Source: an uncultured Pelagibacteraceae bacterium
GTDB taxonomy: Bacteria; Pseudomonadota; Alphaproteobacteria; Pelagibacterales; Pelagibacteraceae
Reading direction: 5' to 3'
NCBI GenBank assembly: GCA_902560625.1
Contig: CACEMD010000002.1
Coordinates: 1 to 64,000, forward strand
DNA length: 64,000 nt
The notes under the pieces were generated by a model. That model saw only the letters and a program-made list of their open reading frames with translations. It made no database searches and was not told where the DNA came from. A program made the translations under genes and the position numbers. Positions 27,105 to 30,936 of the stretch are shown in pieces. The first letter of the stretch is position 1, and every line of letters starts with the position of its first letter.

Positions 27105-27236
27105 ATGGATATATTTGTTATTATTAAAGTAACTATTATTATTGGTTTTGTGGTTTCAGCATTTTTAATTTTGAGAAATATAGATGTAATTAAAATTATT
27201 TTAAATTACTGGAAAGATAAATTACTTAGAAAATAG
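27105..27236 (+). CDS. Possible 43-residue single-pass membrane protein
   Basis: A short reading frame beginning ATG at 27105: MDIFVIIKVTIIIGFVVSAF, a hydrophobic helix of about 22 residues, followed by a basic tail ending KDKLLRK. Its end overlaps the convergent hisG stop by 15 bases. It fills the space between rmuC (starting divergently at 27014) and hisG. The membrane-helix-plus-basic-tail layout is typical of real small membrane proteins, but composition in such AT-rich DNA can produce it by chance. No clear ribosome-binding site. Confidence 0.35.
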   Translation: MDIFVIIKVTIIIGFVVSAFLILRNIDVIKIILNYWKDKLLRK

Positions 27237-27911
27237 TTTAATAAGACTTTTTAACCCTTTTTTATTTTTATTTTTTTTCGAGGTAAATATGCATGCTTGA
27301 GATTTTAAGATTAAACCATCATTTAAAACCCTTAGTTTATTTGCTTTTAGAGTTTGACCTGTTGAAGTTATATCGCTTATAAATTCAGCAGTTCCAATAA
27401 TTGGCATTAATTCTGTGGCGCCTAAAGACTTAACAATTTGAAAGTTGGTTACACCCCTAGAGTATAAAAAAGACCTAGTCAAATTTGGATATTTGGTACC
27501 AATTCTAACAAGATTTTTATTCTTTCTTCTAAATTCATCTGCAACCTCGTCTAAATCTAATGTTGTAAAAAGATCAATATTTTCCTCTCTTACAGCTAAA
27601 ACTAGATTGGCATGTCCAAAAGGAAGTTTTTTTATTAAATTGATATTTTTCTGAATATTAATTTCAGACTCTTTTAATAAATCAAAACCACTTATTCCTA
27701 TATCTAAATTTCCAATCGATAATTGTTCAATAATTTCTCTTGCATGTAAAAATAAAATCCTAATATTTGATTTGCCCTTAATTTTTCCAAACAAATCTCT
27801 TTTTCCTCTATCAACATATATTTTTAATTTCCTCTTTTTTAAAAGATTTTCAGTAAAATTTTTTAATCTTCCTTTTGAAACTATACCTATATTGATTATT
27901 TGATTATTCAT
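27222..27911 (-). CDS. hisG: ATP phosphoribosyltransferase, short form catalytic subunit
   Basis: First enzyme of histidine synthesis, 229 residues: the short HisG type that lacks the C-terminal regulatory domain and needs HisZ. Motifs: NIGIVSKGRLKN at the N-terminus, LDIGISGFDLL (about 78-88), VRIGTKYPNLTRSFL, and the PRPP-binding ATELMPIIGTAEFISDITSTG (about 167-187, in pieces). The gene overlaps hisZ by 8 bases, which agrees with the obligate HisG-HisZ pairing. It is the last gene of the tRNA-His-hisS-hisZ-hisG unit. Confidence 0.95.
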   Translation of the reverse strand: MNNQIINIGIVSKGRLKNFTENLLKKRKLKIYVDRGKRDLFGKIKGKSNIRILFLHAREIIEQLSIGNLDIGISGFDLLKESEINIQKNINLIKKLPFGHANLVLAVREENIDLFTTLDLDEVADEFRRKNKNLVRIGTKYPNLTRSFLYSRGVTNFQIVKSLGATELMPIIGTAEFISDITSTGQTLKANKLRVLNDGLILKSQACIFTSKKNKNKKGLKSLIKLFSK

Positions 27912-28962
27912 AATTTCCTAAATTGACAGCAGCTCCTACTGCTGGAATTCTTTTTAATCCCAAGTATTTAGACGTCAGTTCATTAAATCTTCCTCCAGAT
28001 ATAAGATTAAAAAATTGATTATTCTTTTTTACATCAATTGAAAATATTAATGAGCTATAAAATTCTATTTCTCTTCCACGTCCAATACTAGTCGAAAACT
28101 CAAATTTTAAACCCTTTTGATTAATTTCTTTTATTGGAAAAAAATCATCACTAACCAAAATATTTAATTCGTTTTTTTTAAAAAATTTATTTAAAACATA
28201 CGTAGCATTCTTTAATGGACATTTAATTTTTAAAAAATTTTTAATTATTTTGGCACTTATTTTTCCGGTTTCAGAACGCCTTGGATCATTAATTTTTTTC
28301 TCAAATCTTTTTATTATATCTGTGTACGTTCTCCCATTGATTACTTTATTCAGATCCTGTTTAATCATTTTAAAATACATTTTCTTATCACCTGCAACTA
28401 TCACAGGATCAATGTCTAAATTACTTTCTAATCTCTTTAAAAGCTCTGAAAAGTATTTTTCGTTCCAATAAAACTTTAAAAGTCTTTGCTTCCATCGATC
28501 TGGGATTTGTAATTTTTTTATTAATATTTCAAATATTTTAAAATTTCCTAAACTTATTCTTGAATTTTTATATTTTGAAGATTTTAAAATTTTCAAAGAA
28601 GTATTTATTATTTCTTTATCATCCAAACTCTCGTTTTTAGAAGAAAATATTTCCATACCTATTTGCCTGACGACAACATCTTTCTTATTATAAGATTTTC
28701 TAAATGCGCTTCCTGTATAAAATACTTTTTCCTTTTTATTATTTGCATTTTGTGCATACCTAATTACTGATGAGATCGTCAGATCTGGTCTTAAAGAGAG
28801 TTCTTGACCATCTGAATTATAGAATGAAAATAAATATTTTTTAAAATTTTCACCAGATCTTTGTAATATAAATTTAGACTCTATTACTGAGTCCAATTCA
28901 ATATTTTTGAAATTTTTAGCCTTTAAAATGTTGATAATTTTATTGTAATTTTGAGATTTCAT
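27904..28962 (-). CDS. hisZ: ATP phosphoribosyltransferase regulatory subunit
   Basis: HisRS-like protein of 352 residues that lacks the anticodon-binding domain. It keeps the class II core: ELSLRPDLTISSVIRYA (about 53-69; HisRS-like motif 2 region), FYTGSAFRKSYNKKDVVVRQIGMEIF, and the C-terminal ISGGRFNELTSKYLGLKRIPAVGAAV in shortened form, but not the HisRS histidine motifs, as expected for HisZ. It carries the histidine-binding feedback site for short HisG. It lies between hisS (overlap 23 bases) and hisG (overlap 8), so synthesis of His-tRNA and of histidine are physically linked here. Confidence 0.9.
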   Translation of the reverse strand: MKSQNYNKIINILKAKNFKNIELDSVIESKFILQRSGENFKKYLFSFYNSDGQELSLRPDLTISSVIRYAQNANNKKEKVFYTGSAFRKSYNKKDVVVRQIGMEIFSSKNESLDDKEIINTSLKILKSSKYKNSRISLGNFKIFEILIKKLQIPDRWKQRLLKFYWNEKYFSELLKRLESNLDIDPVIVAGDKKMYFKMIKQDLNKVINGRTYTDIIKRFEKKINDPRRSETGKISAKIIKNFLKIKCPLKNATYVLNKFFKKNELNILVSDDFFPIKEINQKGLKFEFSTSIGRGREIEFYSSLIFSIDVKKNNQFFNLISGGRFNELTSKYLGLKRIPAVGAAVNLGNYE

Positions 28963-30325
28963 TTATTAGATTTTCTTTTGAAACAGTAATTTGATTGTTT
29001 TCTTCTCTAACTTTTAAATTTTTTATAGTAATAATGTTTTTTTCTATCTCTTTCTGTCCAAAAATTACTGCTAGAGAACATCCTTTTTTATCTGCGTAAG
29101 CTAACTGTTTTTTTAAGTTTTTTGATGGATCAAGGTATATTTCTGAATTTATATTATTTTCTCTTAATAAATTAACTATTTCATAGTATTTATCTAAATA
29201 TTTTTCATCTAAAACTAAAACAAGAACATTTTTACTTTTAAAATCAATTTCATTAATTTGATTAAGTGCGAACACTAGCCTGTCAACTCCTATGGACATT
29301 CCAGTTCCCTTAAAATCTACTCCTTTAAATCTCTTTATCAGTGAATTATATCTTCCACCACTAGCACATGAACCAATATCAATCTCTTTTCCTTTGGCAT
29401 TCCTAGCTTTAAAATTTAAATTTGTTTCTACACAAAATCCTGAGTAATAAGCAAGTCCTCTAACAATATTTAGATTAATTTTTATTAAGTCAACGAATTT
29501 TCCTTTGGCTAAAACTTCAAATAAGCGACTAAGTTCATCAATTCCTTCTTTAGATAAAATGTTTTTAATTGATTTTTTTAGCTCAGAAATATCTTTTATT
29601 TGGATAAAGTTTAAAATTGTATTTGTTTGTTCGGTGGTTAAATTTGCACCCTTAATAAAAGCTCCACTTTCATCTTTTCTACCATCTTGAAGAATATTTT
29701 TTACTGCTTCTATCCCCAACCTATCTAATTTATCAATTGCTCTAATTACTTTTCCTTCTTGAGTCTTTTTAATTTTAAGTTCAGATATAATACCTTGAAT
29801 TATTTTTCTGTTAGATACATTTACAGAAAATTGATTATTATTAAGACCACAACTTTTAAAAGTGTCAGCAATTATGTTACATATTTCTCCATCAGCTTGT
29901 GCTTCACTTACATTTCCAATTATATCAGCATCAAATTGCATAAATGATCTGTATCTGGCGCTATCAGGTTTTTCTCTTCTAAATACATCTCCGCATACAT
30001 ATCTTTTGAAAGGAAATGTTAATTCACGATAATTTTGAGCTACAAACCTAGCAAGAGGGGCACTCATATCATATCTTAATGTTAGAGACTCTTTATCATC
30101 TTCAAATGTAAATACGTCTGACATTGGATTAGACTCACCATCAGCTAAAAAAGATCCTATGTTTGAAGTTATCTCAATTGGTGGTGTTTCTATTGGCAAA
30201 AAACCATATTTTATAAAATTAGCTTCTATTATTTTTATAATATTTTTCTTAAGTGCTAATTCTTTGCCCCATCTGTCTCTAAAACCTCTTGGAAGACTGG
30301 GTATTAATTTTTCTTCTTTTTTCAT
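28940..30325 (-). CDS. hisS: Histidyl-tRNA synthetase, divergent alphaproteobacterial type
   Basis: Class II synthetase of 461 residues. The start is set at 30325 (MKKEEKLIPSLPRGFRD); a longer frame would begin inside tRNA-His. Motif 2 region LRYDMSAPLARFVAQN (about 78-93) differs from the usual bacterial LRPEGTA pattern and resembles the eukaryote-like HisRS seen in many Alphaproteobacteria; RYRSFMQFDADIIG, GLAYYSGFCVE (histidine motif) and GGRYNSLI follow, then the anticodon-binding domain with VLVLVLDEKY. The start codon lies 4 bases from the 3' end of tRNA-His, and the gene overlaps hisZ by 23 bases. Confidence 0.94.
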   Translation of the reverse strand: MKKEEKLIPSLPRGFRDRWGKELALKKNIIKIIEANFIKYGFLPIETPPIEITSNIGSFLADGESNPMSDVFTFEDDKESLTLRYDMSAPLARFVAQNYRELTFPFKRYVCGDVFRREKPDSARYRSFMQFDADIIGNVSEAQADGEICNIIADTFKSCGLNNNQFSVNVSNRKIIQGIISELKIKKTQEGKVIRAIDKLDRLGIEAVKNILQDGRKDESGAFIKGANLTTEQTNTILNFIQIKDISELKKSIKNILSKEGIDELSRLFEVLAKGKFVDLIKINLNIVRGLAYYSGFCVETNLNFKARNAKGKEIDIGSCASGGRYNSLIKRFKGVDFKGTGMSIGVDRLVFALNQINEIDFKSKNVLVLVLDEKYLDKYYEIVNLLRENNINSEIYLDPSKNLKKQLAYADKKGCSLAVIFGQKEIEKNIITIKNLKVREENNQITVSKENLINEISKLQ

Positions 30326-30329
30326 TTTT

Positions 30330-30404
30330 TGGTACCGCCTCTTGGAATTGAACCAAGATTGAGAGTTCCACAAACTCCAGGATTAACCATTATCCGAAGG
30401 CGGC
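30330..30404 (-). tRNA. tRNA-His (anticodon GTG)
   Basis: A 75-base cloverleaf with encoded CCA. Acceptor GCCGCCT pairs with AGGCGGT; D stem GGAT/ATCC; anticodon stem GGAGT/ACTCT around loop TTGTGGA (anticodon GTG); T arm CTTGG-TTCAATT-CCAAG. Position 1-72 is G-T (wobble), the discriminator base 73 is A, and the base before position 1 is C, so no G-1 is encoded and no G-1:C73 pair can form. This is the unusual alphaproteobacterial His identity set. It ends 4 bases before the hisS start codon on the same strand. Confidence 0.95.
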
Positions 30405-30454
30405 GTCCTTTGTTATTTTATACTAATTATTATTAATTTTAAATTTATAAATGA

Positions 30455-30529
30455 TTAAATAGCTAGCGTGCAGCCAGCATGAAAATGGTGTCTGTGTGGG
30501 TTTACTGTGATTTTTACATTTTTAATCAT
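30455..30529 (-). CDS. 24-residue His-rich peptide, candidate his leader peptide
   Basis: A short reading frame starting at ATG 30529 encodes MIKNVKITVNP followed by HRHHFHAGCTLAI and TAA. Four of six consecutive residues are His, and the middle of the frame is much richer in G+C than the surrounding spacer, unlike random DNA here. There is no Shine-Dalgarno sequence, but a promoter-like pair (30537-30564) would start transcription at or next to the ATG. It lies directly upstream of tRNA-His-hisS-hisZ-hisG on the same strand, so a leader peptide sensing His-tRNA is the first idea; a metal-binding or precursor peptide is another. No terminator hairpin is visible between it and tRNA-His. Confidence 0.5.
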   Translation of the reverse strand: MIKNVKITVNPHRHHFHAGCTLAI

Positions 30530-30536
30530 TGCGATT

Positions 30537-30564
30537 TAAATATCATTTTTTTTCATTATTGCAA
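30537..30564 (-). promoter_or_regulatory. Possible promoter of the His-rich frame and tRNA-His-hisSZG
   Basis: On the minus strand TTGCAA (30564-30559) and TATTTA (30542-30537) are separated by 16 bases. The expected start point, about 7 bases downstream, coincides with the ATG of the 24-codon frame, compatible with a leaderless transcript. The -10 match is only moderate, and in such AT-rich DNA chance matches are common. Confidence 0.35.
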
Positions 30565-30571
30565 GCATGTA

Positions 30572-30621
30572 TTGTATAGGAATAAAAAAGCATTTTTGAT
30601 GCTTTTAAAATTCCTATACAA
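30572..30621 (-). terminator. Long hairpin downstream of csp, terminator on the minus strand
   Basis: A 12-base perfect arm pair (30572-30583 with 30610-30621) encloses a second stem AAAAGCAT/ATGCTTTT with a short loop. Read on the minus strand, the inner stem is followed by a run of T, forming an intrinsic terminator 17 bases after the csp stop codon. The outer arms may stabilise the csp mRNA 3' end. It separates csp from the His-rich frame and tRNA-His. Confidence 0.7.
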
Positions 30622-30638
30622 ATATGATTGAATTAGAA

Positions 30639-30848
30639 TTAAGAGGTTTTTTGCAGCTTTACTGCAGATGGACCTTTGTCTCCGTCTTCAACTTCAAATG
30701 TAAGTTCGTCACCTTCGTTTAAAAATCTTAAACCTGCTTCTCTTACAGCTGAAGCATGTACGAATACATCTTTTTCTTTATCTTCACGTTCAATGAAACC
30801 ATAACCTTTTTTGCCATTGAACCATTTTACTTTACCTTTTAGACTCAT
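30639..30848 (-). CDS. Cold-shock protein (CspA family)
   Basis: A single cold-shock domain of 69 residues. RNP1 is KGYGFIER (about 14-21) and RNP2 is VFVHASAV (about 28-35), the two nucleic-acid-binding motifs of the OB fold; the start [17 protein letters not shown] is typical. These proteins bind single-stranded RNA and DNA and melt mRNA structure. The gene has a leader of about 100 bases with two hairpins and its own terminator, so it is probably expressed as a single-gene unit. Which paralogue it is (cspA, cspE and so on) cannot be told. Confidence 0.95.
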
Positions 30849-30875
30849 GTTACTCTTTCTTTTGTTATTTAACTA

Positions 30876-30936
30876 AAGCTATTAATTAGCTTGACGCTTT
30901 GTTATTAGATTTTGAAATTTAATTCAAGTCTAATAG
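30876..30936 (-). promoter_or_regulatory. Two hairpins in the csp 5' leader
   Basis: In the 109 bases between csp and tRNA-Phe, two inverted repeats are visible: AAGCTA/TAGCTT (30876-30892, loop of 5) and a longer imperfect pair TATTAGATTTTGAA / TTCAAGTCTAATA (about 30903-30935) with one bulge. Cold-shock mRNAs often carry structured leaders that change with temperature; these are candidates for such control. The larger one could instead mark the end of the infA-tRNA-Phe transcript, though no T run follows. Confidence 0.4.

Follow-up and report, generated by a model that had tools for sequence, protein, structure and literature searches.

A putative His-codon leader peptide with a stop-codon hairpin precedes hisS in SAR11 bacteria

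Upstream of the tRNA-His-hisS-hisZ-hisG genes of an uncultured Pelagibacteraceae bacterium lies a short His-rich reading frame, which we think probably encodes a leader peptide that is translated from a leaderless transcript and acts in cis as a ribosome-read histidine sensor, its His codons reporting the level of charged tRNA-His. Comparison of related loci demonstrated that the frame is conserved, that its His core is under constraint, that the core adjoins a hairpin and that, in each of the order's two families, the whole is linked to hisS; we infer the transcript start, the translation of the frame, ribosome stalling and the direction of the response. SAR11 bacteria are among the most abundant marine cells and have few classical regulators. 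A codon-reading sensor in both families would show how, in a minimal genome, the charging of a tRNA governs the operon to which that tRNA belongs. It would also be a type of attenuator with no conserved terminator, whose leader outlasts changes in the HisRS sequence and in the tRNA-His backbone.

The window (the whole 64,000-nt stretch of DNA that was analysed) carries the leader ORF, MIKNVKITVNPHRHHFHAGCTLAI, at 30455..30529 (minus strand), where it is flanked by tRNA-His and the end of a cold-shock-like (cspA-like) gene. It has 24 codons plus TAA, and its frame is conserved. Read from 30529 to 30455, codons 12-17 are His-Arg-His-His-Phe-His, then Ala-Gly-Cys, just as the initial annotation had given them; this core, HRHHFH (30479..30496, minus strand), holds the presumed sensing codons. 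The ORF had also been described as less AT-rich than its flanks, and indeed its G+C content of 36.0% exceeds that of the 50 nt downstream (12.0%), of the 51 nt upstream (25.5%) and of the window as a whole (27.1%). The G+C excess sits C-terminally (48.7% at 30458-30496, 24.2% at 30497-30529), in the part that contains the His core and the hairpin. In a six-frame scan of the window, HxHHxH occurred once and at least four His in six codons at three places. The stop-codon hairpin, GCTGGC-TGCAC-GCTAGC (30462..30478, minus strand), begins directly after the last His codon, and the stop codon of the window's leader lies a few bases 3' of it. Further along the same strand are tRNA-His(GTG) (30330..30404), hisS for histidine-tRNA ligase (28940..30325), a hisZ-like gene for the ATP phosphoribosyltransferase regulatory subunit (27904..28962) and hisG for ATP phosphoribosyltransferase (27222..27911). 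hisS and hisG (TIGR00070) pass the NCBIfam cut-offs; the hisZ-like gene matches hisZ models strongly (NF008953, E 1.8e-73), yet stays below the curated cut-offs. This tRNA-His is the sole one found in the incomplete assembly (87.6% complete), among 26 tRNA hits of which ARAGORN does not call one.

We found the same arrangement throughout the genus. A HisS query matched 121 of 151 genomes, leaving 30 with no hisS match, and we read 119 upstream regions (65 loci from HisS and peptide searches and 54 stretches fetched for their upstream DNA); two genomes without a hisS start (G080, G172) were left out, and a region with a weak peptide match and no hisS match (G089) was dropped from an initial 120. 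At all 119 hisS loci there is a short ATG frame, 19-38 codons long, with a His codon next to a hairpin of five or more pairs; the two lie within 1 nt of each other or overlap by up to 3 nt in every leader. The stop codon is held by the hairpin or closely follows it in 119/119 loci: in 66 it begins inside the hairpin, and in the other 53 no more than 8 nt after it. Since our script picks ATG frames by their His content and hairpin, significance is measured not by the 119/119 but by shuffles: ten dinucleotide-shuffled sets gave 0-1 of 119, whether or not a promoter motif was required. The frame thus persists upstream of tRNA-His/hisS in 119/119 genus loci, and it does so in 78 of 79 loci of a named set that partly overlaps the 119 (the best 80 of 264 loci, 79 of them with enough upstream DNA). 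A single frameshift was seen among these 79 relatives, a one-base deletion in the His core of L363.

The leaders can be sorted into three types, for which the labels are our own and which two scripts assigned differently for one sequence: type A, ..THRHHFHAGC.LAI and stop (about 59-60 leaders, the window among them), type B, ..STLRKTLRGTNRGVHSHFHAG and stop (about 24-25), and type C, MNINITYRKTFRSTHRNCFHSQ and stop (35). The first His codon begins 12-21 nt 5' of the hairpin in 113 of the 119. There are four His codons in 46 leaders, three in 39 and just two in 34, and these 34 of 119 speak against the sensor model. At the codon level, where the initial annotation had proposed to test conservation, constraint is present and confined to the His core. 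Calculated as Nei-Gojobori-like proportions over distinct sequences, without tree correction, for leaders of modal length (55/59, 20/25 and 34/35 of types A, B and C), pN/pS was 0.44, 0.43 and 0.35 over the six codons that end with the anchoring His, and 1.0, 1.13 and 0.88 over the codons preceding the core. At the four His columns (-5, -3, -2 and 0) CAC or CAT occurred 323 times, CAA twice and CAG never. The low pN/pS of the core together with this CAY bias shows that selection maintains the His end as coding sequence, the remainder being free except for frame and length. Differing His-rich solutions occupy the same place, such as HRHHFHA, RGVHSHFHA, THRNCFHS, SHSHRMHA, THTHSVHA, HTHHHTHA and KHHHYHI.

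The peptide is also tied to the histidine genes. A search of the 151 genomes with the peptide gave 54 matches, of which 51 are immediately upstream of hisS, as read from the fetched DNA in 30 cases and judged from coordinates in 21. The three matches away from hisS (a second match in G063 and those in G089 and G096) have E values of 0.1-0.5 and were taken as chance, as was a match to the His pattern in a phage contig (L032), which is antisense within a 292-codon frame with no hisS in 13.4 kb. Frame persistence, core constraint and hisS linkage together lend good comparative support to the His-codon leader proposed in the initial annotation. hisZ is found 3' of hisS on the same strand in 80/80 loci of the named set (the best 80 of 264), in 23/23 loci of the second family of the order and in 21/21 of a further set described below; hisG was seen in 73/80, 5/23 and 14/21 of these, counts that are limited by the length of the flanks. 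In the genus genomes searched, full-length HisS proteins are 44 to 74% identical to that of the window. At the locus, the backbones of 99 ARAGORN-called tRNA-His genes form 11 clusters at 75% identity, and 20 of the 119 upstream regions gave no tRNA-His call. These sequences suggest repeated replacement of tRNA-His alongside diverse HisRS. That the leader is retained while HisS and the tRNA-His backbone change suggests selection on operon control. No recent local origin of the window's tRNA-His was seen in comparison with the assembly's 22 other tRNA types, the best of which was tRNA-Gln with a score of just 0.55.

Outside the genus, 23 of the 24 second-family genomes gave a hisS match, and all 23 loci have leader frames directly before hisS, e.g. 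MFKFKHHHYHI, MIVFTHHHIHI and MLIIKHHHSHI, each followed by a stop and then a hairpin of 9-10 pairs. ARAGORN calls no tRNA between leader and hisS at these 23 loci, which suggests that the leader tracks hisS rather than tRNA-His. The further set, from 24 genomes of which three without a full hisS were left out (G045, G264 and G301), comprises 21 hisS loci, 17 from other genera of the first family and 4 from the second. A crude rule (at least three His in eight codons) is passed by 18 of the 21; of the remainder, L226 and L239 have leaders by eye, and the upstream DNA of L237 is cut off. Elsewhere in the class, 2 of 50 sampled hisS loci trip the crude rule, and neither is leader-like. Thirty of these 50 were the top-scoring loci among 143 genomes, and their HisS is of a different type (1/30 passes; two have just 267 and 404 nt upstream), and the other 20 come from 58 genomes (one with just 129 nt upstream).

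The initial annotation had seen no terminator before tRNA-His. A terminator-like site is in fact called at the hairpin (30478-30462, tail TATTTAATCA), one of two in the window, one per strand, against 0.1 expected; its tail, however, is not conserved. At least five T in the eight nucleotides after the stem were found in 33/59 type A, 5/25 type B and 35/35 type C leaders, in 0/23 loci of the second family and in 2/19 of the further set (16 other-genus first-family and 3 second-family loci). An intrinsic terminator as the conserved output was rejected as a general feature on the counts for the second family, type B and the further set. The only candidate for a mutually exclusive antiterminator pairing was a possible closing helix, P1, which has backing in type A but not in type B. 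With no conserved U-tract and no antiterminator found, classic attenuation does not fit neatly, as had been anticipated. P1, which is tentative and supported in type A only, would pair the start codon region (AUGAUUAAA, 30521..30529, minus strand) with bases after the hairpin (UUUAAUCAU, 30451..30459, minus strand), and it is seen in the fold of the window. Against swapped partners, 0/300 swaps were as good in type A, 19/300 in type C (weak) and 281/300 in type B, where the helix fails; when the types were pooled, one control region also gave just 2/300. The RNA of the window has an unremarkable folding energy (z = -0.96 for a 90-nt fold, +0.34 for a 130-nt fold). The hairpin arms form 21 distinct pairs with four to six pair types at each of five loop-proximal positions, although pairing is partly by construction of the finder script; arms swapped between leaders pair 54% on average and 72% at most (1000 swaps). 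In an Rfam covariance scan of the window only tRNAs reached the gathering score, with no T-box and no His leader. Below that score (30300-30900, E up to 5) a cspA thermoregulator matched at the cspA-like gene, and the other matches were at chance level, one of them with E 4.8 over the leader on the opposite strand.

A leaderless start is predicted from the positions of promoter-like motifs: a -35-like TTGCAA (30559..30564, minus strand) and a -10-like TATTTA (30537..30542, minus strand) lie at -35 and -13 from the A of the ATG, which would place the window's transcript start at about the ATG. A start at the ATG is what the initial annotation had suggested. A generic sigma-70 scan did not report this promoter and instead gave a weak one before the tRNA (two overlapping hits versus 1.3 expected). 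Throughout the genus the TTG at -35 nevertheless holds its position, and the motif TTG[AC][AT] occurs 22-42 nt upstream of 109 of the 119 genus leaders. The weak site of the scan overlaps a -10-like TAGTAT (30420..30425, minus strand), 15 nt before the tRNA and at a similar position in most relatives, so that tRNA-His may also have its own promoter. A permissive -10-like pattern, TA[AGT][AGT]AT[AC]A, for which there was no shuffle control, is present between hairpin and hisS at 118 of 119 loci, 33-43 nt after the hairpin in 108 of the 118. From such a pattern before the tRNA, tRNA-hisS could be transcribed without the leader, and this counts against the sensor model.

In the mechanism that we propose, the promoter directly upstream would produce an RNA with the ATG as its 5' end, on which a ribosome would trail the polymerase through the variable codons to the His-codon cluster that ends at the start of the hairpin. 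Were His-tRNA scarce, the ribosome would stall at the first His codon and the hairpin could form; were it ample, the ribosome would reach the stop codon in or near the hairpin and hold it open. Given the usual ribosome footprint, a ribosome halted on the first His codon would not reach the hairpin, and one at the stop codon would open it. The position of the ribosome would thus set the state of the hairpin during synthesis of the RNA towards tRNA-His-hisS-hisZ-hisG, and that state would adjust both the capacity for tRNA charging and the entry into histidine synthesis, through candidate outputs that include termination, Rho access, RNA processing and decay. A more specific version is conceivable but doubtful: a SAR11-specific, terminator-free, one-hairpin sensor in which the pioneer ribosome on a leaderless mRNA toggles the stop-codon hairpin, and in which, in part of the genus, a second helix then captures the start codon so that each transcript is read once, setting tRNA-His, the synthetase and the first histidine-synthesis enzyme together via an output other than intrinsic termination.

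One alternative keeps the leader, with the hairpin itself serving as a weak intrinsic terminator whose 5' arm is covered by a ribosome stalled on the last His codon, so that starvation gives read-through. The terminator-like call in the window agrees with this, as do the tight His codon-hairpin junction in all 119 leaders and the type C tails, 31/35 of which have at least six T of eight. Nonetheless we judge it unlikely, because T-rich tails are lacking or infrequent in the second family, type B and the further set despite the conserved leader and hairpin, and because a stall at the first His codon would, by the computed distances and the usual ribosome footprint, leave the hairpin uncovered. 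A nascent arrest peptide, sensing a ligand such as free histidine in the tunnel rather than charging through codons, would account for the residues that recur next to the His codons (THR..FH and, in types B and C, runs rich in Arg), but pN/pS is close to 1 over the pre-core codons, whose residues would occupy the tunnel, and the second-family peptides (~11 residues) share just the His run; such a peptide is very unlikely.

We give still less credence to two further readings. The metal-binding or precursor peptide that the initial annotation had offered as its alternative would be a functional small peptide lying next to hisS by chance; the frame is conserved and HxHHxH could bind metal, yet the constraint is at the hairpin-abutting end only, the N-terminal part being unconstrained, the number and spacing of His vary, and 51 of 54 matches are beside hisS, all of which makes this option highly improbable. 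The same applies to a structured RNA, either an sRNA or a factor-bound cis element, in which the reading frame would be incidental. The hairpin arms diverge widely and still pair, in part by construction of the finder, and the possible P1 of type A outdoes its swapped partners; against these stand the core pN/pS, the CAY/CAR bias, an ATG in 119/119, the position of the stop codon, the unrelated hairpin sequences and the lack of any Rfam family at gathering score, the match over the leader being at chance level and on the other strand.

Amino-acid leader peptides are a known kind of element, of which the leaderless form with a stop-codon hairpin and no conserved terminator would be a variant. 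The enterobacterial hisL has seven consecutive His codons and a multi-hairpin terminator/antiterminator; it resembles the element described here in placing ribosome-read His codons upstream of histidine genes, whereas the window has no Rfam His leader match. In E. coli pheM-pheST, a leader peptide likewise controls an aminoacyl-tRNA synthetase, but with Phe codons and a classic terminator. According to Naville and Gautheret 2010 (PMC2965389), Bacillus has His leader peptides upstream of hisS* and hisZ, short ORFs with a stretch of His codons before hisS-family genes as in SAR11, but these were found via a search for Rho-independent terminators; the SAR11 leader differs in having no conserved terminator, a predicted leaderless start and a hairpin at the stop codon, and in belonging to another phylum. 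An alphaproteobacterial precedent for a leaderless amino-acid leader ORF is trpL of Sinorhizobium meliloti, an attenuator ORF whose ATG is the 5' end of the RNA; unlike the SAR11 leader it has Trp codons and a transcription terminator, and its sRNA and peptide also act in trans (PMC7298713).

In SAR11 strain HIMB5, 11 uORFs have been predicted, each with a proposed role in controlling the gene that follows it (Stav et al. 2019, PMC6429828); the main text of that paper contains neither 'hisS' nor 'histidine', with the uORF details placed in its supplement, and the hisS leader may be among the 11. We therefore make no claim that the element is unpublished. Neither hisS nor 'histid' occurs in the main text of a paper on structured RNAs of P. 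ubique (PMC2704228) or in the portion of PMC8632094 covered here, and among the literature matches listed there was no report of the element by name. The leader is a compact target for a reporter, and thus directly testable.

Several further sequence features were observed around the leader. At the 23 loci of the second family (L147-L169) an ACCCC stretch lies a few bases after the hairpin in 23/23, in a region that is otherwise A+T-rich, and TCCAC occurs in a number of first-family loci; these C-rich stretches raised the idea of Rho loading, but the window has nothing like them after its hairpin. Upstream of the window's leader, between it and the cspA-like gene, is a long A+T-rich inverted repeat (30574-30619, GTATAGGAAT..ATTCCTATAC), whose TATAGG/CCTATA ends recur in the type A relatives inspected; in its place, several type B and C loci carry another repeat that has ACGTCC at its end. 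An extra inverted repeat, CTTTAAGA..TCTTAAAG, is found inside the reading frame of type B leaders such as G128, G157 and G109, where, in the sequences inspected, it lies a short way 5' of the first His codon.
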